DNA of 64,000 nt, taken from contig JAFREE010000102.1 of the NCBI GenBank assembly GCA_019400425.1, positions 1 through 64,000 of the forward strand, in the 5' to 3' direction. Every line of letters starts with the position of its first letter. Positions within the stretch are counted from its first letter, which is position 1. Position numbers and translations under genes: made by a program. The DNA comes from Hymenochaete sp. R1 (Eukaryota; Basidiomycota; Agaricomycetes; Hymenochaetales; Hymenochaetaceae). The notes under the pieces are model-generated. The model did no database searches, was not told the origin of the DNA, and saw nothing but the letters and a program-made list of their open reading frames with translations. Shown piece after piece: positions 1 to 53,821 of this stretch.

Positions 1-57
1 TCTGGAAATAAGTTTAGAATAAATTTCGGAGTTTTAGACAGATATGTCTGTCTCACA

Positions 58-3000
58 TTTCGTTGATGTCTGATGTGATTCGATTCGGATTCGCTTCCTG
101 CTGAGACGCCAGCGTCTGAGCGGCATTTCGTGAACATTCTTCTTTGGCCGAATGAACCGTGTCTCCGTTGCCCCGTGAAATGAGCGTTCCATCAACTTTT
201 CCCCCCGTTAGAACCTTACTGAAAATACAATGCAGCTAGGAACCGCTACGCACTAAAAATGGAAACCTCGACGTTCCAATATCTCAGATCGTCTTTCCTC
301 GGACTGCCCCTCTGATCGATATGGTACCGCCCCCTCCCAACCTTGTCATCGAGGAATTTTAGGAAGACGGGATAGAAGCTCAACTGTGGGAATAGTGTTT
401 CGTCGCTGTTGACTAGGGGGAGTGATTAAGAGGAATAGGCGAGTATCAGTAGTGGCGAAGAAATGTTATGACTTGGCTCACAGATTTTCGCAAGAGCACC
501 GCGAGCAGCAATTTCCTTCGCTCCTTTCTTCGACCTGCCTTTACCTCGACCGAAATCCTGGCCGTTCACTGCGCAATTTGCAAGGAGTAAGAAGCATCCA
601 AGCCTCACCTCGCACTTCTCGGAAAGACAACTTACCTTGACAGATAGCCACGAAATCGAGGAAAACCTCGCCTTGAATGATGTCATAACTCAATTTGGAT
701 ATCGCGCCTTTTTGCTCCAGTTCGTGAAGTGCACTTTGAGCTGCTAATTTCAAGCAAAACCTGGTGAGCCTAGGTGGTCATTCGATGCTATGTTCAAGAA
801 CGTACATTTGTTCTGAAACCTCAATATCGCGTCTAGGATTGGAAACGGCGGAGAAGGTAAGGAATCAATCGTGGGCATAGGAATCTGGATTTGCATTTCT
901 TCTTCGCTGATGCATTCTCCGGATTGTGAAGATGAAGATGAACTCTCGTTCTCCGATGTCTCCAAGTCGGTCTTACTCGATTGCGAGCTCGTGTCGCTGG
1001 CATTGTTTTCGCCGAACTCATAACTAAAGCCTTGTAAGTCAAAGATTCAGATGAGCCATCGTAGTTGGTTTGTATGAAAAATGGTCTCACCAATGCTTCG
1101 GGGTATATAAATATCGATACATAGAGAACCACACATCACTTCCAGAATAAATCAAGTCACTTCGCCGTAGTAACAGTAGTAAGTTATCAGAAGCGAGGCT
1201 GATCTTAGAGAAAGTAAACAAATGGTTATGAATCGCAGAAACTCCAGCTGCTGCTCTTATAATGTATCAGCCACATCGCCAAAAGTATAGACGTTGGAAG
1301 CGGCAGCCATGGCGCACTACGCCAGGTTCAGAAAGTGGTCGTGGTTGAGTCACCTAAATTGAAGCGATAGTCAATGCTATTGTCTGACGCAAGGTGACTC
1401 AAGAAAAAAGATTCAAGTTATTCGTGCGTTTTTGTCTGTGTTAGTCAATGGAATATAACTATAAATATCGTACCAATGTGAGTTAGCCGTCGGCAGACGA
1501 TGAGGAGTTTGGAGTCGTGCTCATTCATGTGACAATTACACTCATCAGAATTCGCTTTTTACTGCATATAGAAATGGATATCGAACTTAATCGAAGTCCT
1601 GGTATCCCGCCGAAATCCGCGTATCTTCTAAGAAACACTCAGCGGAAACGGAAAACCCAGGCCCAGTTCGGTGACGCGCTTAAGCGCTGACGCCAGGACA
1701 GTGCTTGTTTGTTTCCACGCTTTGTCGCGCAGCTCTTTGCAAAGCGTGGGAACGCATTGCTAGCATAGTTACGGAAATTCCAGTAATATTCTGGCATTGA
1801 TATCGCCAGCGATAACAATTAACATGAGTCACTGAACTGGGCCCCAGTAACCTTCGATCGATCGGGACGCGGGTTCTGCGGGTCAATCTATGAAATGATT
1901 GGCTCTCAAGCGTGAGAAAAGGTATAGAAAAAGACTGACTCATTCAAGCTAATTCTCGCAAAGCTGCAGCCGACTTTGTGGCGTCTCTCTTTAAGTTAGC
2001 CCCACAATGCCCATCTTCGTCTACATTCCCCGCTGTGAATTAGAATCGCATGATCCTTGGCAGCAACAACGACACGTTGGACTCAGACGCCGATCTTTTT
2101 CCGACTCAGCGATTCCATCAACAAAGTCGTCGTTATTATCGTATCCAATACACATCCGATGAGTAGCATGGTACTACTCTTCTAAGAAATGCTTTGTATC
2201 TGCGTGCGACATCGGTATTTAATAAGTAAAAATATCCAAAATATCTGCCCTGTTTATCTGTTATCAAGGTATCTCTGAACAGACTATCTGGTAGGGGAAA
2301 ACTTGCAGGGGTCTGTCCAGAGCACGGCGAGAACTTGAAGACGGTGCGTAACTGGTTGTCTCAAATGCATCGCACCAGGCGAAGTACTGTGAAAGGCAGT
2401 CTTCTGCGGGTGAACTCTTCTGGGCCCATCCGCCCCTGAAATCACAAGTTTGAGTTCTAAATGAACAAGACGAATTATGGTCTTCCCATAAAATAAGTTA
2501 GAGATAAGGAAACTTGAAGGAGACATAACACTAGCCTGTGACGCCTCGAATGATCACCGTGACTGCAATGACTGCGGGTACCAAGTAATTGTCTTTCTGC
2601 AACTCGTCAAGGAGGGAGGTAATGCGCGATCTGTAGCCTGGGCTAGCAGATGGAGTTAAACATGAAAATAATAACGCACTTTAGAGCCGCCATCTTCTGT
2701 CGTTTCTTCGTAACAATGGTCCAACGGCATAGGCAACATATCGTAAAGAGTGTCTGCTTATGTTATTTGAAGTCTAGTCCAAGGTACTCTTTGGGGTACG
2801 GAGTATTTGTCACCTCTTTCCCCTTGTTATACAAACAGGGCGGTATTTCGTAGTTGTGATTGCTCCCAAAAGGCACTTGTCCCTAAAAAAAAGTTGCTGT
2901 AGACTACCGGTTACATAGTATATCAACAATTGACTTAGGTTCATCGAGTTTGCCAGCTCACCAAAATTAAACAACCATAAGACTAGATGTTGCTCTTGTA

Positions 3001-3197
3001 AGTTGGCTTGAGATGTACGGATCCGTCATCATTTTCAGGAGTCTATATAAGTTAAACACTGTTGATGAGAAGACAGTCAGTAAACATTTTGGACCAAAAA
3101 CTTGAAAAAGCAGCTTCACGTTCCTAATAACAACTGCACGCCCATTTTTATAGTTGATTTCACAGGATAACGCTGACTTCACTGCCAGTGCAAACAC
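58..3197 (-). pseudogene. decayed tandem copy of the kinase-dsRBD fusion gene
   Basis: This is a broken paralogue of the neighbouring gene at 3326-7001, in the same orientation and exon order. The kinase ATP-lysine segment (AVKSALS) is recognisable near 3190-3100. The coding sequence then jumps straight to the late kinase motif (TYKSNI-stop-SYGCLIL against TYKSDVWAFGCLIL in the intact gene) near 3010-2970, so most of the catalytic domain, including the HGD and DFG motifs, is deleted. The glycine loop and start codon are also absent. The C-lobe end (2880-2690) contains an in-frame stop. The first dsRBD (about 2180-1950) has a stop after HFLEE. The second and third dsRBDs (about 960-60) are well preserved, but a one-base loss after the last intron (near 217) shifts the frame. 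The conserved C-terminal helix (AKEECSRNAAQTLAS) shows that this copy was once coding. A short dsRBD-only product from the preserved 3' half cannot be excluded. Confidence 0.85.
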
Positions 3198-3325
3198 TCA
3201 TTTTAAAACGCATAACCTCATTTCCTCTTTAATACGCATGGCTTATCAGCGCTTCGTCCTGTCATGACAGGCTTTCATTGCCTCACCCATCTCGCACACC
3301 AGCTCCAAATTTGTCAAGGTTCTAA

Positions 3326-6300
3326 TCACTCCATCCCTCGAACACGACTCGGATTCGCTTCCCACCGAGACGCCAGAGCTCGAGCGGCATTTCGTGAACA
3401 CTCTTCCTTGGCCAACTGCGCCGTGTTTCCATTGCCTTGCATTATGAGCATTCCGTCAACTATTTGCCCCATCAGAACCTTCTCTGATAAAAATGTGAAG
3501 TTGCCAGTGGACAATATCACGTACTAAATATATCAACCTCGACGTTCCAAAATCTCAGGTTGTCCTTCCTCGGACTGCCTTTTTGGTCTATGCGATACCT
3601 CTTTTTCCCAACGCTGTTGTCAAGAAATTTTTGGAAAATAGGATAGTATCTGAATTGTGGGAAAAACGATTCATCTTCATTAACTGAGGGAGGCAAGTAA
3701 GCAGAGAGGCCGAGTATCTGCGGCAAGGAGGAAGGCATATCGCATTGCAGCTTACAGAGTTTCTCCAGAGCAATGTACGCAGCAGATTCCTTCGCTTTCT
3801 TCTGTGACTTGTTCCTGCCGTGGCCATAGTCCTGGCCATTAACTGTGTGGTTAACGAACGCGCATACTCGTTAGGCTCGTGCTACGTCGTCTTCAGCTGA
3901 AAGACAACTGACCTTGACACGTAACGCTGAAGTCAGGGCGAACCTCACCCTGATTGATCTTGTAGTTCAGCTTGAATCCGGCGCGCCCCCTCCTCTGCTC
4001 TAGTTCGTGGAGCGCGCTTTGTGCAGCTGTTGCAGACAGACCCAATGAGTAAGGGTAACCTTCGAGATTAGACTAAAGAACGCACACTTATTCTGATATT
4101 TTAACATTGCTTCCAGAATCGGAAACGGCGGGGTTGATAATGCGTCAAGTGAAGACGTTTGCGCCTGTTGTTCTTTTTTAGAGCCATCCTGAGACGACGA
4201 TAAGGCTGACGACTGTGACGGGTTTTGGCTCTCCGATGTATCCAAATCGTTTTCGCTAGACTGCGAATTGGTGTATCTCGTGTTGTAGTCCTTGCAACTT
4301 CGTAACTCATCCTCCGAGCCTGAATAAATGGAGATATAAATTGGTCCTCGTAGACAGGCTTTTACGAGATTCGTACGCACCGCTGCTTCTGGATACAAAA
4401 TGTTCGACCGACGGTGAACAGCACATCTCTGCTTGCATGGATGAGATGACACTGAATCAAATACACGTAGTACTGGAAGTAAATAAGCAGAATGTGGGGT
4501 CAATCATTTGGTGCTAGTTAAGTACACAAACAATGCGCGGCAGCTCGAGTTAAGGCTCCTATAGTTTTTTGGCCATACTACGGAAAGTGTTAGTTATTAG
4601 AGGTATCAGTTACACTGCGCCGAACATATGCAACTCATTTCATAGCCACGTCTACGAAATATGTCGTGGCTGGGTCACATGAAGTTCATAGACCGAGATG
4701 ACAACTGTGACAAGCTGGCCAAACCAATGTCGTTTCTTCGAATCGAAGGAGGGTTCCGACAATTCGCACGTCCACGTCGGCGCTCGTTGTTAGATGGCAT
4801 CTATGATCATTCGAGTTTTTCGAAGGGAGATGACCGCCTCATGTTTGTAATGTTACTGATTCCAAAAATCATAGCATACTGTACATGGAAATGAATATTG
4901 CAGCAGCGATACTCGGCCAAAATCCGCGTATCTAGGAACCACTCAGCGGGAACGGAAAACCGTTTACCTTCTTCAATTGGAACGCGGGCTCCGTGTCTAG
5001 GGAAATAATTTTCAAGAAGTTCAGTTGTCAGACTTGGGAAATATGAAGGAGGCGACTAACTTATTCGGGCTAATGTCCGCAAAGCCGCCAATTTCGTAGC
5101 ACCTTTCTTGGCCCGCGGTGCCCACCCCCGCCCATATTCTTCACCATTCACTAGAATTGTATTAGGTTTGGTAGTACCTAAAACGCGCCGGGCTTACAAA
5201 TGGCAATTCTTTCAACACCGTCAGGGATGTCGACATCGTCATCGTAGTCGATACGCATTCGAAATGTACGACAGTACTCGTTCAAAAAATGTTTTGCATC
5301 TGCGCGCGATATCAGTCTTACCAAGTGGATGCTGCATACGCTCTCACTGACCAGTGTGCATCTCATCGAGATATGTCTGAATAGCCTTTTCAGATGGGGA
5401 TAAGATCCTATTCTGCATACAAGAGGACGACGTGCGACTTGTTGTACTATCGACTGTGAATGTATCCTCCGATGGCGAAGGTGACCTTCTATCGATCAAA
5501 AAGTCTCCCGAATTCCCATAAAACCGTAAAGGGAAACGAGATAGATCATTATCTTTCACAACTGTTATTAATAAATCAAGGGAAGATAGGCTAGGAATAT
5601 CACATACTGGATATATCGCTACCCGACGATGACGCCTGCGACTGCAAAGAGATCGTCTCGACGCCTGCTTGAGCTACGAAACTTTCTTCTTGCAACTCGT
5701 CGTGAAGTGAAGCGATATTCGTTCTGAATACTGGGTTAGACGCCGATGTACAATATCACGCAAAGCACATACTTCAGAGCATCCATCTTCGGTCGTTTCC
5801 TCGGATCGAGTTTCCAACAGAAACAACAACAAAGAGCAGATAACGTTTGTCTGTACCATTCAAAGTCCGGCCTATGACACTCTTTTGGAGGCGGTATTTT
5901 GGGAATTTCTTCCTTCTTGTATAGGCAAATCAGTATTTCGCGATCGCGCTTGTCATAATAAGGTAATTGTCCGGAAAAAAATTGCTGGAAGTCAAGTGAA
6001 TACTATATCATTGGCAACAACTTTTTGTTGACTCACCAGTATCAAACATCCGAAGGCCCATACGTCACTCTTGTAGGTCGGCTTAAGATGGGCGTTATCG
6101 TTGTTGTCGTTTGCAGAGGAGTCACTGGCCAAGATGAGCTCGGGAGCATCAAAGCGACACGCTCGATTTCCGTCATGGGAGCTAGAATCATTCGCGACCC
6201 CATTTTCGTCTAGAATCCTCGAGAATCCAAAGTCACATATAAGCAAGTGGCCGTCATCCGCTACCAGAACGTTGTTCTCCACATCCCATAGATAAGTCTC

Positions 6301-7001
6301 TCACGTCGCTCCATGAAACTCGCTCACTCACTGCCTTCAGATCTCCATGTATCAATTTCTTGGAATGAATATATGCAAGGCCATTCGCGATGTCCTCAAC
6401 CTGACGTTGGATAATAGTTCAGTAGCAGAACATCAGTAGAAGCAAGTATCAGGTACCATTGTACGGATATTAGCTGAAGAATCGCTCCGCGCGAATTTAT
6501 CAGCGGTTCCTCTTTCCATGAACTTCGAGACCAGACTCGGAAATGGTTCATTTTCTAAGCACATAATGCCACAGAACTTGAGGACGTTCAGATGCTCCAG
6601 ACGCAGCCAAATTTTCACCTCTCTTATGAGTTTCTATTTCGAAAAATTAACCGAAAAGGCGATCAATAAATGCTTTGATTCAAAGAGAAAGAGAACTTCA
6701 CCTTCCTGATGACTTCTGCGCGCCCACTTCCGAAGTCGCTCTCAGAGTACAATACTGACTTCACTGCGCAAATGTCTCTTTTCGTTACATTACGTTCCAA
6801 GACATTGCGCGTGGCGCGGTACTTGTGAACAACTCCGTATGTACCTCTGCCAACGCGGTGGTTCGCTTGATTGAAGGGTTTCAGAGCATCTGTGAGATCT
6901 GCGGCTCCCAGCCCCTGGATTTCTTCGCGTAGTAAGGACACGGAGGAAATACGAGCTGTGAGCCCTGCAATACCGGGGGCACGACTGTCTGGAGATAGCA
7001 T
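3326..7001 (-). CDS. protein kinase fused to three C-terminal dsRNA-binding domains
   Basis: Thirteen exons splice by GT-AG introns into about 769 residues. Residues 1-330 form a protein kinase: glycine loop GRGTYGVV, lysine motif CAVKS, a loop of the HGD type (HGDLKANN, keeping the catalytic Asp and the metal-binding Asn), CDFGFS, an APE motif (DAPELI), SDVWAFG and the closing LDPRKRP. All catalytic residues are present, so activity is expected. A Ser-rich linker follows. dsRBD1 lies at about residues 432-495 (HFLNEYCRTF ... KKGATKLAALRTL), dsRBD2 at about 570-640 (ALHELEQ ... NKSQKKAKESAAYIALEKL) and a weaker dsRBD3 at about 670-760 (IFQKFLDNS ... AKEECSRNAARAL). The last exon joins through a GTACGT donor. 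Start ATG at 7001 opens just before the kinase fold. dsRBDs bind RNA duplexes; by analogy with PKR this could be an RNA-activated kinase, which is inference. Its substrate is unknown. The closest relatives in view are the decayed copy downstream and the gene at 12516. Confidence 0.82.
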
Positions 7002-7603: not shown

Positions 7604-9961
7604 ATGAAAACAGTAACCATTTTGGCGCTATTCGCAGTCTGCCTTGACGGCGCACTCGGTAAGTTCGATCGAATCTATTTTCAATATCACAAGAGGCTGA
7701 CGTTTTGCCCTTGTCAGCGGACGGGAATGACTGGATCAATCCCGCATTCGTCGCAAAGAAGAGTGGGGTACAAAATGCGCAGGATCGCATAGTCGCCTAC
7801 GCAAAGAGTCTGGGAAGTAAAGGGCCATGGAGTAAGTCTATTTATCTTCAATCAAACGTGACATACCTTCTCAAAGGGCACAACGCGCAGCGGTATATGG
7901 TGATTCCAAAATTCTTCCCCCCAATGGCGATAAGCTCGACTATTTAAGCTGGGCGCCATAGTAAGCAAAGGCCAGCTTTCTGATCTGGCCATTCTCTAAC
8001 CTTTGTTTAGCCACTGGCCAGATTGCAATTGGTGCACAGGACCACGCTCTCATCTTGGAACCGGTGGAAATCATACAGACTCCAACGGAGCCGACACTAA
8101 CAGCACCGAAAGTAGCACTGGTAGTGACGGCGACGACGGCTATTACGGAGATGATTATGGGGACGGTGAAGATACTGACAATGGCGAAGAGTATGGAGAT
8201 GATGGGCAAGGCGACTCCGGTGATAGCGTCGGCGATACGGCATCGAATGCCAACGAGGATGAAGGCAAAAATACGTTGATAACATTGCCCATTCCAGTGC
8301 CCTCTATCCCTTGGAAACATCGGCGAATGGTGAAGCGTGTTCGCCAAATGATCCATCCTATTCATGCGCGCTCCGTCCTCGGGTCCAGTCTACTCCCGAC
8401 CGTTGAATCAACTGTGGACACGATAGATTTTGCGTTACCGACAGATGCGCCAAACCTAAATGAACCAACAACAACGGACAATGTTGCAAGCGGAACGGGT
8501 GGTGCAGCTGAGAACGCCCGTAAAACCAGCAAGCCTGCTCCAAAACCAAAGACATCGACTCAGAAACGTCCACCAACGAAAACGATGAACAATGATAAAT
8601 GCACACCTTCTCCGTCGAAAAGTCTGGCGCCATCTGCCAGTAAGTTGGTTCCAATTTCTGTGAATTAGGTTGCTGATACTGACAATTATTTGATCGAAAG
8701 CATGGACAACATGCCCATATGTAACCCGCGACGGGAAGCTGAATCCTGATGTACGATCTTTGCCCGGTGTAAACAATATCGTCGCTGTTTCGCAGGCTGT
8801 TATCTATAACGCCATGGCCGCTGTATTCTCCGGGTCTGACTCGTATGCGATGAGTGCGGCGACCTTCGTGAACGCCTTCTTCCTCGACTCAAAGACGGGA
8901 ATGCATCCGAGGATAAACTACGGACAAGTCATCCGTGGGCCGCAAAAGCAGGTGGGCCAGTATCTCGGTGTTCTCGACTTTCGAGGCATGGTTAAGGTCA
9001 TAAACGCCATCGCGATTATGCGAGCAACTAAGTCTCCTTCCTGGACGGGTGCTTTGGACAAGCAAATGGCCTTGTGGACTACGCAGTACGTGAGCTGGCT
9101 CCACTCAAGCTCACAAGGTCAACGAGCGTTGTCCGCTCCGAAGTAAGTACATTTGCGCAGATCAAAGCATGAGCTGACAAATGCCCAGCAATCACGGAAG
9201 TTTCGCCGCCAACCAACTTGCTGCAACTGCTATTCTCGTAGGAAACACGAAGGACGCAACTGCCGCATTGCAATCCTACTTCACAAAGCAATTTCAGGAC
9301 CAAATCGCCGCATCGGGCGAGCAGCCGTACGAAGCAGTGCGAACACGTCCTTTCCATTATCGTTGCTTCAACCTTGAGGCCATGATCGTGAGTTTTGATC
9401 TCTGACACCGCGAGTCGGAGAGCCATCATCTAACCCTTCTTCTAGACGAACGCAAAGCTCGGAGATCAGATCGGTTTGGACTTTTGGGACGCGCAGTCCA
9501 AGTACGGGGCAAACATCCAAAGAGCACTGGATTTCGTTATGACGAAGGGACCCGGTACGGAGGACATCACGGACATCTTTCCTCTCGTCGCGGCAGTGGC
9601 TGCTGCATATGGGGACCCTGTCGGAAAATACGATTCGTACCTCAAGAAAAATGATCCCCGTTACCAGACTGCGCCGTATTACTTCTACAACCAGCCAGCA
9701 GCCCTGTCTCAGGCGCCGACCTCGAAGCACGCAAGGAAGGAGATTCAGCAGAACGAAGATCAACAACACTTCTCAGCGTCAAATACCATCCCGGTGCCGA
9801 CTGAGGCTGCTGCGCCGCTCCCCACTCCAACAATTCCTTGGGAATGTCCCGCAGCGTTTGCGACTGCGACTGAAGTTGAGCTTGATGATGGCGTCTATGT
9901 GACATGCGACGAGTTGAAGTATTTCTATGGGTACGAAGAAACGGCAAAACAGAGTTCTTAG
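7604..9961 (+). CDS. secreted alginate-lyase-fold polysaccharide lyase (PL38-like)
   Basis: Seven exons (7604-7658, 7718-7831, 7891-7960, 8011-8639, 8701-9142, 9189-9387, 9446-9961) give 674 residues with clean GT-AG joins. A signal peptide (MKTVTILALFAVCLDGALA) is followed by the family N-terminus (SWAPYHWPDCNWC), a long variable linker, and the catalytic half with CPYVTRDGKLNPDVR, the NNHGS motif and RPFHYRCFNLEAM. These match the alginate-lyase superfamily (alpha/alpha toroid) as found in basidiomycetes and in PL38 glucuronan lyases; the Asn-His of NNHG and the His/Tyr of RPFHY are the expected active-site region. The likely role is beta-elimination cleavage of uronic-acid polymers outside the cell. 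The linker (about residues 90-285) is unusual: a strongly acidic Asp/Gly/Glu tract, a basic stretch and a Pro/Lys/Ser/Thr tract. The C-terminal tail (after about residue 590) is low complexity. Substrate is not deducible from sequence. Confidence 0.88.
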
Positions 9962-46169: not shown

Positions 46170-46495
46170 ATTCAAATTATACATAGTTCTTTTCTGCATT
46201 CGAATCGATTCATCTTTTTGTATACTACTACTTGTATATGTTCCTTAATATATCTAAGACATTCTTACGTAACAGTTCCGTCTTTGACCCTATCTGTCGT
46301 GGTACCGGTGTCTTGCTTTACTGGATATCGAAAGTCAGTGTCTTCTGTTCCGACTGCCAAGAGACTGTGTACTGACTCCTGTTTCGTTGAGCTACACATT
46401 CACATATAAACCGAGCGTCTCGTACATCACTTCAGCATCATTTCATCCTCTCGTGCGTCTTTCTTCAATCGTTATATCTCTTCCTTGCTTCATAC
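46170..46495. other. spacer before the Rep-helicase
   Basis: 326 bases between the companion gene stop and the Rep-helicase start, T/C-rich near the start codon as in many fungal leaders. No gene seen. Confidence 0.5.
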
Positions 46496-49400
46496 ATGTC
46501 CGACGCCTGTCGTACTTCCAAGAGAACAAGATTTCTCACTCCCAAGACTCAGGTCTTGTATAGTGGTCATGAACCACCGTTATTATCCGAGCAAAGCTCG
46601 TCTGCTTCCCGGAAATGGGTGCATTCTTTCAAAGACTTAAAAGCAAATCTTATCCAGCCCGCACCTTCGTTTATTGATTCGGATCGTTTTACTTTTGTAC
46701 AATGTGCCCGGACGACCGCTGATATCTCCCATTCAACGATGGAGTCTACTCTTGTCATTCGAGACATCCCTATCACGGTTTTAAAGCGATTCCAAATCCA
46801 CGAACTTCAGCAAGTTTTTTCATCCCTCGGTGTTGCGCACACTGTCGGTGCTCGTCCCACTAAACAAGTCATATTGAATGACCTTCTCAGCCTTCGTGCT
46901 CGGTTTTCCAATTTGTTGTTTGTATTCAAGGCGAACTCTTTCCATACTACGTTGGATCGGTGTTCTTCTTCTTTCTCGTACACTTCCTTGTCTCAGTTTT
47001 CAACTACTCCTGTTGCGGACCATCTAAAGTCGCAACCATTTTCATTTCGCGGTATCACAAACGTCGAAGATAATGAATCGGTACGGGAGTCCATAATGGT
47101 GGTCCAGGGAGCGCCTCCTCAACTTCTCTCCCGTCTTACTTTGCCTTGTTTAAGGGCCATTGCCTCTTTCTTCGAAATATCATTGGTTAATTCAAAGTCT
47201 CGTTATCATACGCTAAAAGATTTGAGATCCCGAACTAATGAGTCTTCTCCATGTAGGATCGTCTTTTCTTGTTCGACTGTGTTCACCATACTTGCTGCTG
47301 CAGACGTCGATTTTGACTATCCTCCATCTCAGCTGGGATTCGATCTTTTGGAAGACTTTATTAACAATTGGTGCGACGCGGTAAGTCCACGTAACATTGA
47401 AGAATGCGGGTGTGGAGCTTGCGGCCAATTACGACCCGTTATCGATGTTGTCAACTTCGATCGCCTCCAAGACCTCGACCTCTCACCTCTTTCCAATGAC
47501 TTTCCCGATACAACACCATGCACTCGTGCTCCTCGTATGTCCTCCTCCGATCCCATACAACCATTACCTGGGCCGGTTTTGGACTGGTCCTGTAGAGGGA
47601 TATGCAAGACGTGCATTTCTCATATAAAAAAAGATCGATGTCCGCCACTTGCGCTCGCCAAAGGTCTATGGTTGGGTCCTGTTCCCGATGTTCTTCGTGA
47701 TGTAAATTATGCTGAACGATTGATTGTTTCGAGGCATCAACACAACGTATTCTGTGTTAGGGCCAAGTCTGGTAGACTTAGGACAAAAGGTAATGTAATT
47801 CTCGTCCCATCTCCAGTTCGAAAGGTTTACAACATCCTTCCCCCACCCAAAAAAGATTTCAAAGAAATCTTTGCGTTCTGTTTCACTGGAGAGACATTCC
47901 CGTCTTCTGATTTACTAGACAGAATGCCCTTCCTCGTTCGGAAAGACAAGGTTTTTGACATTCTTACATTTCTCAAGCTCAACAATCCGGAATATGCAGA
48001 TCTTGAAATAAGTCTCGAAAATCTCGAAACTTACTCTGACAACCAGATTCCTGTTCAACCGAGGTGGACTCAAACTCTTGATGCAGGGAATCGAGATCAT
48101 CTTGCGACTGCTGTGCACGATTCCGCTATTGAAGAAGGAGTGACGTCCGCCACTGACGAAATCGAAATTCCCTTCACAGTTACAGGTATTTCATATGACA
48201 CTTACTCGCAAGCTTCTACCGATCCCATCGCATTAAAGGCCTTTGCAATACAAACATTGGTTAGAGGTCAGATGGTCGTCGGTATCGGTAGAGGCGACGA
48301 ACCGGTAAAAACGTTTGACAACGAGCATCTCCTTACTCAATCATATCCATGGCTATTCCCCTATGGCTACGGAGGAATCGGTAACGAACGTGGTGTTGGT
48401 CCGCGCTTGACTAACTCTGAATGGATCAAGTGGCTTCTCTTTTACCACGACAAACGTTTCCAGCTCGATGGTGAGTTTATCATCCTTTGCTTTAATCTCT
48501 TCCAGATCAGACAGTGTGTCACTAGGGGTAATCTCATGTCCAAAAGGAGCTCCTTTGTAGATGTCTCTGAACGTCTCAAAAACATAAATCTGTCCGTTCT
48601 TTCATCTATTGTTTCTCGTATGAAAGCCGGCGAGAGGGTAACAGCCCAGACTCCAGAAGAGCAGGCATGTTTCCATCTTTTAAGTGATGTAGATCTCGTC
48701 GGTAACTCAGTTTTCGCTTCCGTGTCCTCGAAAAAAACATTGCGGAGCCAGATCTGGTCTGTCATTTGCGCCAGAGGCGCTCCGACGTGGTTTATTACAA
48801 TCACACCACCTGATGGGAAGAATCCCATCTCCCTTTATTACGCGGATACCAAAGAGTATTTTCATCCTCTACCTCTCAATGCTAATACCCGTTACTCCAT
48901 AGTTGCTAAAAACCCCGTCGGCGCCGCGCGGTTCTTTCATCTCATGGTACAACTTTTTACTCGACATGCATTGCAAGGGTCAGAAGAAAAAGGCGGGTTG
49001 TTTGGTAAGACCTCTGCTTACTTTGGGACGGTCGAACAACAGGGTAGACTGACTCTTCATCTTCATCTTTTACTCTGGATTGAGGGGGCGCCGCCCCTTG
49101 AAGAAATACGGCAGAAGCTGTTGTCAAGTGACAGTCAGTTTCAACAAGAACTCATTTCTTACTTTGAATCGTGCCATACAGGCGATCTCATGACAGGTTC
49201 GTACTCCGACGTCCTTCAGCGACGAGCTCAGAATGAAGCTCCTGGATACGATCCCGTTCAGGATCTTCCCCGTCCAGTACCCCCGAAATGTGCCGCATCT
49301 TGCGTGGATGGCTGTTCCGGTCCCCTGTGCCTCGCCTGTTCCAATAACAAGTCCTGGTGGCAATCCTTCCCAGCTGAGGTCGATTCCATTGTAAGTCGCT

Positions 49401-52400
49401 GCAACTTTCATACCTGTGCTCCATTTTCGTGCGGAAAAGATCCCCGCGATTCTTCCTCCAGATGCAAGGCCCGCTTTCCCAGACCCACTCATCCGGATTC
49501 AACAATTACAGATGACGGTGTCGTTGTTCTGAAAAAAACCGAATCCATGATGAACACATATAATCCAGTTCTGTCATACCTTCTGCGATCAAATACCGAC
49601 GTTACATGCCTCCAATCAGGAACTGCTTTAAAGGCTGTCGTTATGTACGCAACTAATTACATCACCAAGACTCCACTCAAGGCCGCTGTTATGTTCGATA
49701 CCATGCTCGACCAACTTACAAAGAACAAGATTCCTTCTGACGTCGACGACGACCAACAATGTGATGCAAGTCGACGGGTTTTGACGAAAACTGTCAACGC
49801 TCTCACTGCCAAACAGGAAATCGGTAGCCCTATGGCGGCTGCCTACTTACTTGGCCATCCCGATCATTATACCGATCACGAGTTCGTAAATTTTCCTTGG
49901 AAACAATTTGTCGCCGTCACAGCTCACAAAATGCACAGTTCCGTTGATACAAATGACATCCCTTTCTCTGATTATGACAGTCAACGCCTTTTCATAACTA
50001 AGGATGGGGATTCTTTCGTTCCGTATCACGTCGTAATGGATTATATGTATCGTCCCATAGAGCTCGAGCATATAAACCCATATGATTTCATTCTCCTTTA
50101 CAAAAAGATTCCGCTTCCGTTGAGCAAGAAGAAGGGTGGCATACTGAAAGGTCAGCTTTCTCATGATCGTAATTCGTCTGCCGTTCCTCTCCCTGATCCC
50201 GAACTTTCTTGTACGAGTTCAGTTCTCGGCAAGAGAAAACGTCGGATGACATCGAAGATGCAACAACTTCAAGCTTCCACGACTGATTCCTTTGACGAAC
50301 ATTCTCCCTCAAAAGCCGACCGGCTGCTTCGTTTTACTCCTGATCACCCTCTTTTCAAAACACATGGTATCTCTATGCTTTCCTCCAATGCGAAACGAAT
50401 CCCTAATTTCTTAAAACACCCACCATCTCAATCTTCTTCTGATGCCGAATATTTCTACCTCTCCATGCTAACAATTTTCATGCATTGGAGAGACGGGTCC
50501 GACATCTGCTCCTCGGGCAGTACATTGAGCGAAACTTACCATTCTCATCACTTCACTGACCGTCAGCGCCAACTCATCAAGAACTTTAATGTCAGAAACG
50601 AATGCCTCCGCTCCGCTGATGACTTTTTTGCGCAACGTAAGCAGGCTCCTCTCTCTTCCGATGACATACCTGCTGTTTTGGCTGATTATCGTGTTGAGGA
50701 ACTGCATGCCGACATGGATGAGGATATCGTACAGAACGATCAAGGTGATGACGATGTATCGCATCTCCTTCTACCAACAAATACTTCCCTTCTTGAACAA
50801 CAACGAGCCGTTCACATTACAAATATTCTTAACCACACAGGCTGGTCGTCTCTTCGTCAAGACAACACAATCATTACTGGTGTCGGCGATGAGGATGATA
50901 ATCGGCCGTCATTTCTCGGTCAGCTTCCATCGTATTGGAAAGATAAACTGACAAAGGTTCGTGACGCTGTTGTTCATTCTATTCAATATGGGCCGACTCA
51001 TGCACCTCCTTCACAACCAAACACGTTACATGATGACGTCGTTCCTCTCCGATTCGGTGAAGACAATCCTTTCAGATTTCCTCCGCATTATGACCCACGT
51101 GCAATAATGGACTCAATATGCAGCACATTTTCTCTCAACGCACAACAGGAACGAGCGTTCCGAATTGTCGCTCAACATTCCTTGCATGCAGGTGGAGACC
51201 AGTTACGCATGTATATTGGCGGAATGGGTGGCACGGGCAAATCACAGGTCATCAAATCTTTGAATGAATTCTTTCGCGAACGACGCATGGGTGACGCCCT
51301 TTCCCTTTTAGCACCAACAGGCGCTGCAGCCGTTTTGTTGGGAGGGTCGACTTACCATTCCTTCCTTGGATTTAATAAGGGCACTTCCGATGATGAGTAT
51401 TCATTCTCTTCACCGAACGCACTTGCCGAACTTGATTCTAAGATGAAGAATGTTAAATACCTGTTCATTGATGAGGTTTCAATGATTAGCTTGCAGAGTC
51501 TTCAGAGTATTTCAGAGAGACTGAATCAGGTACGGAATAGTACTTCTACTTCGCCTTTTGGGGGATTCAATGTCATCTTTGCAGGCGACTTTGCGCAGTT
51601 AAAACCCGCCATGGGCTCTCCCATTTACACTACTCTTGCAAAGATACGGCATGGGATCACTCCTGCAAGGATTAGACCTTCCAAATCAATAGAAAAAGCT
51701 ACGGAGGGTAAAGCCCTATGGAATCAGGTAACAACGGTTGTAATGCTAACGCAAAATATGCGTCAGACTTCTCAGTCGATCAACGAGTCCAAATACAGAA
51801 ACTTACTAGAACACTTACGCATGCGTGCATGTACAGACGACGACATCTCATTCCTTCGCTCTTTGCAGGCTGATAGTTCTCAAGAGAAACGGGTTTTCGC
51901 ACGGTCTCTTCCCCGGAACTTGTCAATAATCACTCCTTTCAATGTTGAAAGAGACACTATCAATTTAATCGGTCAATCCTTGTTATCTGCTGAAATGGGC
52001 AAGCCCCTCATAAAATTCTACTCTATTGATCGCCCTGTCAAGCACCAGCAAACATCTGCAGACCCATTCTTAAAGACTGGTCATATATCCATCCGTGAGC
52101 AGGACGAACTGTGGAACCTTTTACCGGGTAAAACGCAACATATACCGGGTTCTCTTTCTATCTGTAAAGGGATGCCTGTCATGATTCGGAAAAACGATGC
52201 TACCCAACTTGGAGTAACAAATGGTGCTGAGGCGTTCGTCGTCACATGGGATTGTCATGAATTTCGACAAGGTATGTACACTTTAGATACCTTGTTTGTC
52301 GAGCTACGCGATCCTCCTCGTCCCATTTATATCCCAGGCCTGCCCCCCAATGTCGTTCCGTTAGTCGCACGAGAGGAACAAGTTGAGTGTCACTATCCTA

Positions 52401-53821
52401 GCAGATACAAGCGCCACGTTCGTCGGCGCCAAGTTCCCGTCGTTTTAAATTTTGCCATGACTGATTACTCTTCTCAAGGCCGAAGCCGTGAAATCAATGT
52501 TGTATACTTACGTAATTGTAGGACCCACCATTCTGTTTATGTAGCATTGTCCCGGAGCACTTCTGCTGAAAAAACTCTTATCCTCGACGGCGTGAACGAG
52601 AATCTTCTCAAAGGCGGATTGGGCGCTGATCTGCACCGCGAGTTCCAGCACATCAATAAACTGGATCGAATAACACTTTACAGATACGAGTCTCTCTTTA
52701 TCCAGGATGTCCCTTCACCCACTCGTATAGCTTTGTTTCATGCTTTTGATAAGTATTTGTCCGCCCGAGGCATCGGAGACGGCGAAAACCGTCGCGCGCG
52801 ACTTCTGGCTCAATCAACAGGATCGCTAACACATCACCATCCGCGTCAGTTGAACAATTCTTCTACAGGACGAAACGTTGCTCAAAGACAGCCGCGTGAC
52901 GACGATATCCAATTTCCTGTGCCGCGTGTCCATTCTGAAAATCCTTCATACGTTGGTTTGCGATGGGACTCTCGAAACCAGTCTTGTGCGTACGATTCTG
53001 TGTTTTCGACGATATACAACTGCTGGAAATCTTTGCACGGCAAAAACATCGATGAAAGGGACAAATGCTTACGACCGTCTCTCCTCCAAAACTTCGTTCA
53101 AATAGACAGAGATGGATGTTCCTTTGAAGCCGTCCGGGACAATGAGCGCAAACTCATGCACTCCTTCGACAGTTCATTGTTTCCTTTCGGAAACGTGATG
53201 ATCGAGTCTCCACCCGTTGCCCAATACGCGTTCTCCTCAAACCATACCTATGCCATCCAAATCGTCTCCTGTTCCATATGCGAGACCACGATTTCTGCAA
53301 AGGTGAATGCTTGTTTTATCTCAGATTATGGCAAGTACGTTCGATTCAATGAACAAACGTCTCACTCCAATGCATCGTTTAATACCGAGGCCTGGGTAAA
53401 TTACTATCTCCGGAACTTCGCGTCAACTTGCACTGCTTGTGGTTCTTTCGTGGAAATACCGTACCGTGACGTTTCTATTTGCTTTTCGTTTTGCAGTATG
53501 CTATGTATTGAACTGCCTGATACATCACAAGACTTGCGTGTTTGTTTGTCTATCACAGTTGATGACCCGTCGCATTCTAATTCGCAAGCTACGTACCGAT
53601 TGGCTGGAGCGGTCTACTATCGTGATCAACATTTCACGTCCGCACTCTTTGATTCAAAACGGGAGACATGGTGGAGTGACGGAATGCTCCAACATGGCAC
53701 TTACGTTACGTCGGGTTCATCCCTGTTGCATGTCTCGGGACTTCAAAAGTCCCCTATTCCTGGACAGTTCCCCACTTTAATTTTCTATACCCGTGTCGCG
53801 GATGCTGCATCTCCTGATTGA
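46496..53821 (+). CDS. Helitron Rep-helicase (RepHel) with C-terminal USP-like protease domain
   Basis: One uninterrupted frame of 2441 residues, notable among intron-rich genes. In order: an N-terminal region with no clear domain; a Cys-containing DUF6570-like part (about residues 360-520, CRGICKTCISHI and GLWLGPVPDVL); the Helitron-like N / Rep domain (about 650-1060) with the HUH motif in TLHLHLLLWIEG and the catalytic tyrosine motif YATNYITK; and a Pif1-type helicase (about 1550-2090) with Walker A GGMGGTGKS, LAPTGAAA, Walker B LFIDEVSM, GDFAQLKP and VYVALSRS. The C-terminal 290 residues have a Cys box (RNQSCAYDSVF), a possible zinc ribbon (CSIC ... CTAC) and a His box (AGAVYYRDQHFTSALF), the layout of a USP-type deubiquitinase. 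Rep nicks and rejoins single-stranded DNA and the helicase unwinds it during rolling-circle transposition. All key motifs are intact, so the element may be autonomous. Confidence 0.93.
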   Translation: MSDACRTSKRTRFLTPKTQVLYSGHEPPLLSEQSSSASRKWVHSFKDLKANLIQPAPSFIDSDRFTFVQCARTTADISHSTMESTLVIRDIPITVLKRFQIHELQQVFSSLGVAHTVGARPTKQVILNDLLSLRARFSNLLFVFKANSFHTTLDRCSSSFSYTSLSQFSTTPVADHLKSQPFSFRGITNVEDNESVRESIMVVQGAPPQLLSRLTLPCLRAIASFFEISLVNSKSRYHTLKDLRSRTNESSPCRIVFSCSTVFTILAAADVDFDYPPSQLGFDLLEDFINNWCDAVSPRNIEECGCGACGQLRPVIDVVNFDRLQDLDLSPLSNDFPDTTPCTRAPRMSSSDPIQPLPGPVLDWSCRGICKTCISHIKKDRCPPLALAKGLWLGPVPDVLRDVNYAERLIVSRHQHNVFCVRAKSGRLRTKGNVILVPSPVRKVYNILPPPKKDFKEIFAFCFTGETFPSSDLLDRMPFLVRKDKVFDILTFLKLNNPEYADLEISLENLETYSDNQIPVQPRWTQTLDAGNRDHLATAVHDSAIEEGVTSATDEIEIPFTVTGISYDTYSQASTDPIALKAFAIQTLVRGQMVVGIGRGDEPVKTFDNEHLLTQSYPWLFPYGYGGIGNERGVGPRLTNSEWIKWLLFYHDKRFQLDGEFIILCFNLFQIRQCVTRGNLMSKRSSFVDVSERLKNINLSVLSSIVSRMKAGERVTAQTPEEQACFHLLSDVDLVGNSVFASVSSKKTLRSQIWSVICARGAPTWFITITPPDGKNPISLYYADTKEYFHPLPLNANTRYSIVAKNPVGAARFFHLMVQLFTRHALQGSEEKGGLFGKTSAYFGTVEQQGRLTLHLHLLLWIEGAPPLEEIRQKLLSSDSQFQQELISYFESCHTGDLMTGSYSDVLQRRAQNEAPGYDPVQDLPRPVPPKCAASCVDGCSGPLCLACSNNKSWWQSFPAEVDSIVSRCNFHTCAPFSCGKDPRDSSSRCKARFPRPTHPDSTITDDGVVVLKKTESMMNTYNPVLSYLLRSNTDVTCLQSGTALKAVVMYATNYITKTPLKAAVMFDTMLDQLTKNKIPSDVDDDQQCDASRRVLTKTVNALTAKQEIGSPMAAAYLLGHPDHYTDHEFVNFPWKQFVAVTAHKMHSSVDTNDIPFSDYDSQRLFITKDGDSFVPYHVVMDYMYRPIELEHINPYDFILLYKKIPLPLSKKKGGILKGQLSHDRNSSAVPLPDPELSCTSSVLGKRKRRMTSKMQQLQASTTDSFDEHSPSKADRLLRFTPDHPLFKTHGISMLSSNAKRIPNFLKHPPSQSSSDAEYFYLSMLTIFMHWRDGSDICSSGSTLSETYHSHHFTDRQRQLIKNFNVRNECLRSADDFFAQRKQAPLSSDDIPAVLADYRVEELHADMDEDIVQNDQGDDDVSHLLLPTNTSLLEQQRAVHITNILNHTGWSSLRQDNTIITGVGDEDDNRPSFLGQLPSYWKDKLTKVRDAVVHSIQYGPTHAPPSQPNTLHDDVVPLRFGEDNPFRFPPHYDPRAIMDSICSTFSLNAQQERAFRIVAQHSLHAGGDQLRMYIGGMGGTGKSQVIKSLNEFFRERRMGDALSLLAPTGAAAVLLGGSTYHSFLGFNKGTSDDEYSFSSPNALAELDSKMKNVKYLFIDEVSMISLQSLQSISERLNQVRNSTSTSPFGGFNVIFAGDFAQLKPAMGSPIYTTLAKIRHGITPARIRPSKSIEKATEGKALWNQVTTVVMLTQNMRQTSQSINESKYRNLLEHLRMRACTDDDISFLRSLQADSSQEKRVFARSLPRNLSIITPFNVERDTINLIGQSLLSAEMGKPLIKFYSIDRPVKHQQTSADPFLKTGHISIREQDELWNLLPGKTQHIPGSLSICKGMPVMIRKNDATQLGVTNGAEAFVVTWDCHEFRQGMYTLDTLFVELRDPPRPIYIPGLPPNVVPLVAREEQVECHYPSRYKRHVRRRQVPVVLNFAMTDYSSQGRSREINVVYLRNCRTHHSVYVALSRSTSAEKTLILDGVNENLLKGGLGADLHREFQHINKLDRITLYRYESLFIQDVPSPTRIALFHAFDKYLSARGIGDGENRRARLLAQSTGSLTHHHPRQLNNSSTGRNVAQRQPRDDDIQFPVPRVHSENPSYVGLRWDSRNQSCAYDSVFSTIYNCWKSLHGKNIDERDKCLRPSLLQNFVQIDRDGCSFEAVRDNERKLMHSFDSSLFPFGNVMIESPPVAQYAFSSNHTYAIQIVSCSICETTISAKVNACFISDYGKYVRFNEQTSHSNASFNTEAWVNYYLRNFASTCTACGSFVEIPYRDVSICFSFCSMLCIELPDTSQDLRVCLSITVDDPSHSNSQATYRLAGAVYYRDQHFTSALFDSKRETWWSDGMLQHGTYVTSGSSLLHVSGLQKSPIPGQFPTLIFYTRVADAASPD

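Follow-up and report, generated by a model that had tools for sequence, protein, structure and literature searches.

The DNA analyzed here, a 64,000-nt window of contig JAFREE010000102.1 from Hymenochaete sp. R1 to which all coordinates below refer unless another contig is named, carries on its minus strand a predicted gene that runs from an ATG at 7001 to a stop codon at 3326 and comprises 14 exons with an open frame of 755 AA. In the predicted product, a kinase domain (residues 47-335) is followed by three segments resembling double-stranded RNA-binding domains, designated dsRBD1, dsRBD2, and dsRBD3. A dsRNA-regulated kinase is our best reading of this locus, in which the activation by dsRNA, the substrate, and an antiviral role are what we infer. 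In full, and with a confidence somewhat short of an even chance, we propose a TK/TKL-like kinase with intact motifs and a C-terminal dsRBD1, putatively controlled by dsRNA, with dsRBD2 and dsRBD3 either in the same protein or in the product of an adjacent gene.

The splice sites of the model were picked by hand. All 13 introns have GT-AG ends, and 12 of them are 41-72 nt long, intron 9 being 741 nt; the first-pass annotation had counted 13 exons, and the analysis gives 14. Exons 1-5 (5773..7001; 7001-6702, 6633-6457, 6400-6332, 6276-6037, and 5984-5773) encode the N-terminus and nearly the whole kinase domain, approximately residues 1-333. They are followed by an in-frame, open linker in exons 6-7 (5352..5723; 5723-5608 and 5561-5352) and by dsRBD1, approximately residues 441-506, in exons 8-9 (5061..5299; 5299-5198 and 5150-5061). 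Introns 5, 6, and 7, which lead from the kinase to dsRBD1, measure 49, 46, and 52 nt. The kinase and dsRBD1 are joined in one frame through short introns under a one-gene and a two-gene model alike, and of the three dsRBDs only dsRBD1 is securely linked to the kinase. Beyond a gap of 741 nt (4320..5060), which is intron 9 or a boundary between two genes, exon 10 (4086..4319) encodes an acidic and serine-rich linker, exons 11-12 (3756..4026; 4026-3913 and 3842-3756) encode dsRBD2 at residues 587-650, and exons 13-14 (3326..3683; 3683-3525 and 3483-3326) encode dsRBD3 and the stop codon. Some 1.7 kb away from where the kinase gene starts, an open frame on the plus strand contains an alginate lyase domain (PF05426, E 2.2e-24; 8694-9143). 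A Helitron-like transposon was also found in the window (46391-53818, plus strand), with a 2476-AA uninterrupted frame (stop to stop) carrying Helitron_like_N, DUF6570, and PIF1 helicase domains.

The kinase domain is complete, with the glycine loop, AVK, HGD, DFG, and APE all present; the HGDLKANN, DFG, and APE motifs reported at first pass were all recovered in the spliced protein, the last of them within DAPEL. Residues 47-335 matched PF07714 at E 1.4e-35, over nearly the full length of the profile (positions 4-257 of 258), and PF00069 at E 8.1e-35. The 60 PDB matches listed of 2461 were mostly EGFR, Eph, RIPK1, and Src and included no eIF2-alpha kinase, nor was an eIF2-alpha kinase found by name among the at least 19 proteins matched in a search with the whole protein. 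Judged from its sequence, the kinase looks TK/TKL-like and, because it does and no eIF2-alpha kinase occurs among the matches listed, it is probably not a rearranged PKR.

The motifs DLKANN, EEIP, and CWKLDPRKRPKM were compared by eye with the descriptions in a published survey (PMC3937382), in which the non-TK motif set consists of the lack of an AARN-type loop, a proline at the fourth place of motif 3, and CW(X)6RPXF. By eye, the kinase examined here appears to resemble the FslK/TKL kinases described there in lacking a TK-type (AARN-type) motif before APE and in having proline as residue four of motif 3 (EEIP). It also seems to share CW(X)6RP with them, but this is followed by KM, with M for the F of CW(X)6RPXF. 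Set against the published motifs by eye, those of our kinase seem to fit the TKL/FslK description, a fit that covers FslK and TKL alike. According to the same survey, 16 of 241 FslK members of Agaricomycetes have an extra domain and most have none (PMC3937382); the extra domains of those 16 may include dsRBDs. In the genome, the stretch from HGD to exon 4 gave 27 other matches at E 0.001. An expansion of TKL kinases has been reported in Laccaria (PMC2838846), and in the main text of that report neither 'dsrm' nor 'double-stranded' occurs.

The three dsRBD segments were tested separately against the Pfam dsrm profile (PF00035), the curated cut-off of which is 23 bits. dsRBD2 scored above it (41.2 bits, E 2.5e-10), and dsRBD1 (19.1 bits, E 0.0019, profile positions 2-64 of 66) and dsRBD3 (13.1 bits, E 0.15) scored below. 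With the whole protein as a query, two stretches passed, the best at residues 587-650. Of the arrangement first proposed, a kinase in front of three dsRBDs, the Pfam searches suggested along with it thus bear out the kinase (PF07714/PF00069) and dsRBD2 (dsrm), and leave dsRBD1 and dsRBD3 sub-threshold as segments. The best PDB match of dsRBD2 was PKR (E 3.2e-6). In the register of PKR dsRBD1 its lysine motif reads SQKKAK vs. SKKEAK, so that the full consensus ascribed earlier to the second dsRBD is not quite there: most of the motif is kept, and the first motif lysine is Q.

For dsRBD1, inspection by eye revealed an acidic RNA-contact loop and T at the third motif lysine. The segment gave no PDB match at E 1, and in the genome it was matched only at the two C5 copies (E 10). 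The weakness of dsRBD1 counts against a dsRNA-regulated kinase. The dsRBD3 profile retrieved no dsRBD from the PDB, the only matches being two glutathione transferases at E 0.4, which counts against it, and by eye this segment is without a lysine cluster. Alignment of dsRBD3 with the dsRBD2/dsRBD1 set by hhalign gave E 4.7e-5 with a probability of 68%, and its homologue on contig C238 scored 24.9 bits, above the dsrm cut-off; both results lend dsRBD3 support.

A decayed tandem copy, recognized by alignment and by a stop in its dsRBD1, lies directly downstream of the intact gene (1..3230, minus strand). As compared with this copy, codon positions 1+2 are identical at 312/483 sites in exons 5-9 vs. 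113/240 at position 3 (p 1e-5), and at 364/491 vs. 121/246 sites in exons 10-14 (p 3e-11). The bias is weaker in the linker between the kinase and dsRBD1 (exons 6-7; 125/213 at positions 1+2 vs. 46/106 at position 3, p 0.012); in exon 10 the identities at positions 1, 2, and 3 are 49/75, 51/75, and 25/75. Exons 1-4 were omitted from these counts because the tandem copy is deleted or aligns poorly in that part: no site could be aligned in exons 2 and 3 and 17 in exon 1, while the identities in exon 4 are 71/122 for positions 1+2 vs. 26/62 for position 3. For the 192 codons compared in exons 10-13, pN/pS was 0.35, and the synonymous sites were close to saturation. Codon usage adds moderate support, since the modelled frame is the best one in all 14 exons when stops are penalized and in 11 of the 14 when they are ignored. 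Conservation by codon position shows that the protein sequence of these parts has been under selection, and it supports the prediction that the gene is coding.

In the tandem copy, most of the N-terminal half of the kinase, including the HGD and DFG region, could not be aligned, and dsRBD1 is interrupted by an in-frame TAG. The equivalents of exons 10-13 are still open, and the last junction, as judged by eye, keeps the frame only with a 31-nt intron. A third copy, on contig C238 (L023, from 1414 to about 2180), contains a dsRBD2-dsRBD3 pair that shares 35% identity with the intact pair, with several introns at matching places (by eye). At one junction, where the joined frame ran into a stop, there is by eye either an intron of just 26 nt or a frameshift, and in the 1.4 kb upstream, to the contig end, no match to the kinase or dsRBD1 was better than E 3. 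Given this junction and a start 1.4 kb from the contig end, the C238 copy may be a relic. As the kinase was lost from the tandem copy and none was detected upstream of the C238 pair, dsRBD2-dsRBD3 may not need the kinase. With one copy intact-looking and two damaged or partial, the state of the latter makes the family look like one that gains and loses copies, as we infer.

Whether all three dsRBDs share a single transcript turns on intron 9, with its 741 nt vs. 41-72 nt in the other 12. We consider three dsRBDs in one protein and a division into two genes about equally likely. The three-dsRBD protein proposed at first pass therefore holds as far as the kinase-dsRBD1 join, and its connection to dsRBD2-dsRBD3 hangs on a 741-nt intron that is possibly intergenic. 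Two neighboring genes, duplicated as a pair, come close to an even chance and are allowed by our best explanation; there would then be no three-dsRBD protein. Gene A, the kinase with dsRBD1, would end soon after 5061, and gene B would encode a two-dsRBD protein from an ATG at 4426. The candidate first exon of gene B, placed by eye (4381..4426, minus strand), would have its donor at 4380, with a 61-nt intron leading in phase to exon 10; in the tandem copy, an ATG and a donor align with these (by eye). Besides the exceptional length of intron 9, the two-gene arrangement is favored by codon scores (stops penalized) that between about 4700 and 4520 stay below zero whichever of the three frames is read, by a conserved block within the gap, by the better conservation of exons 10-14 than of exons 5-9 at codon positions 1+2 (p 0.0014), and by the dsRBD pair on C238, upstream of which kinase and dsRBD1 were undetected. 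Yet the exon 9 donor and frame join exon 10 in phase, a chain of introns of at most 90 nt can span the gap (with a poor score and without a control), and the C238 copy, with its 26-nt or frameshifted junction 1.4 kb from a contig end, may be a relic.

The conserved block itself (4916-4961 vs. 1609-1657 in the tandem copy, minus strand) is 86% identical over 49 alignment columns, despite the near-saturation of synonymous sites nearby. It had no match in the genome beyond the tandem copy and may have a regulatory function or represent a short exon. A repeat or transposon as the source of the 741-nt gap is disfavored, the tandem copy being the sole other genome match.

PKR (eIF2AK2), the vertebrate dsRNA-activated kinase, likewise combines a kinase with dsRBDs, and it is the protein that dsRBD2 matches best in the PDB. 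In PKR, the dsRBDs precede a C-terminal kinase, whereas here they come after it. The number of dsRBDs varies in PKR as well: one study describes a Tetraodon PKR1 with three dsRBDs, including a weak one (PMC2291453). To describe the protein as PKR-like parts in reverse order, as had been done, is an overstatement, since only the dsRBD half, through dsRBD2, resembles PKR. The kinase half differs from PKR and the other eIF2-alpha kinases in looking TK/TKL-like, and since eIF2-alpha kinases are absent from the 60 PDB matches listed (of 2461), an origin independent of PKR, also suggested at first pass, is favored.

In PKR, as described in the same study, the dsRBDs aid dsRNA-driven dimerization, which precedes trans-autophosphorylation (PMC2291453). 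By analogy, clustering on dsRNA could activate the kinase described here: dsRNA would gather two or more kinase copies via their dsRBDs, and mutual phosphorylation of the clustered kinases would be followed by that of a target further downstream. Since the kinase seems to belong to a different type from the eIF2-alpha kinases, eIF2-alpha is unlikely to be this target. dsRBD2 is predicted to be the likeliest RNA-binding module, and the lack of a lysine cluster makes a role in protein contact more likely for dsRBD3. As a separate protein, dsRBD2-dsRBD3 may be a dsRNA-bound partner of the kinase.

It is also possible, and in our estimate rather unlikely, that the dsRBDs are only modules for protein contact or localization and that dsRNA does not activate the kinase; they might, for instance, tether it to the RNA-silencing machinery. 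The weak dsrm matches of dsRBD1 and dsRBD3, in which much of the lysine motif (read by eye) is missing, would suit such a role. In the silencing cofactor TRBP, the last of the three dsRBDs lacks the lysine motif, as dsRBD3 does here; TRBP-like silencing cofactors are not known to have a kinase domain. TRBP is a three-dsRBD component of RISC (PMC3261181), and the protein predicted here would share that number of dsRBDs if the single-gene model holds. The Piwi, RdRP, and RNase III matches of the genome point the same way. dsRBD2 argues against a pure contact function, being a good dsrm match with most of its motif kept, an argument that counts only if dsRBD2 is in the same protein or complex as the kinase.

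Counted exon-wise, and thus not as genes, the genome (G000) gave 14 matches for Piwi, 16 for RdRP, and 7 for RNase III; a fungus without RNA silencing was rejected on these grounds. The Piwi matches are on six contigs (C161, C72, C101, C223, C272, and C271) and those of RdRP on seven (C291, C201, C290, C199, C326, C120, and C18), which suggests an enlarged RNA-silencing set. With these components present, the kinase would act beside RNA silencing rather than replace it, and its coupling to RNA silencing is a fair alternative. The dsrm search of the genome at E 0.001 gave four matches. One of them belongs to the tandem copy; by eye, the match on C275 falls in a frame resembling RNase III, and the two on C246 fall within or next to a frame resembling a DEAH helicase. 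Other kinases with dsRBDs were not found among these four, in a search that intron-split domains escape; other split dsRBDs may have done so, as the intron-split dsRBD2 of the intact copy was itself missed.

That the locus belongs to a decaying gene family, the intact-looking copy being a survivor without a conserved role, is in our view unlikely. The tandem copy is broken and the C238 copy may be, and for the dsRBD part no relative was found in protein searches of limited reach. But all 14 exons are open in the intact copy, and the pN/pS of 0.35 together with the codon-position bias reflects selection through much of its history. As for chance, that the dsRBD segments should be artefacts of splice-site choice is very improbable: the splice sites were hand-picked and Pfam is weak for two of the three dsRBDs, but the E of 2.5e-10 already disfavors a chance origin of dsRBD2, the same exons are retained in the tandem copy and show codon-position bias, and C238 encodes the dsRBD pair in the same order.

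The search of 5.8 billion sequences with the whole protein returned at least 19 proteins at E 0.001 (among 7994 candidates scored), with 18-39% query coverage; these have kinase domains and no PF00035 among the domains listed. With the dsRBD region as a query there were 0 matches at E 0.001 among 3326 candidates, and with a shorter dsRBD query, for which dsRBD-only proteins were admitted, 0 at E 10 among 115 candidates. Such searches require shared 5-residue words and similar length, so that their reach is limited and absence is not implied. In the open-access literature, the titles and abstract openings of the matches listed mention no fungal kinase with dsRBDs. A review of fungal kinases treats PKR as vertebrate-specific and states that, of the four eIF2-alpha kinases, GCN2 alone is conserved in fungi.

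There is also a broader view, which we regard as possible and would not call probable: in fungi, a TK/TKL-like kinase and C-terminal dsRBDs may have been combined, independently, into a kinase activated by dsRNA. This would provide a dsRNA-triggered signaling branch that runs parallel to RNA silencing and does not involve the eIF2-alpha pathway, in a family with fast turnover. A fungal kinase with a dsRBD of its own would represent a case convergent with PKR that uses a different kinase type, and fungal signaling in response to viral or transposon dsRNA, beyond silencing, would become directly testable.
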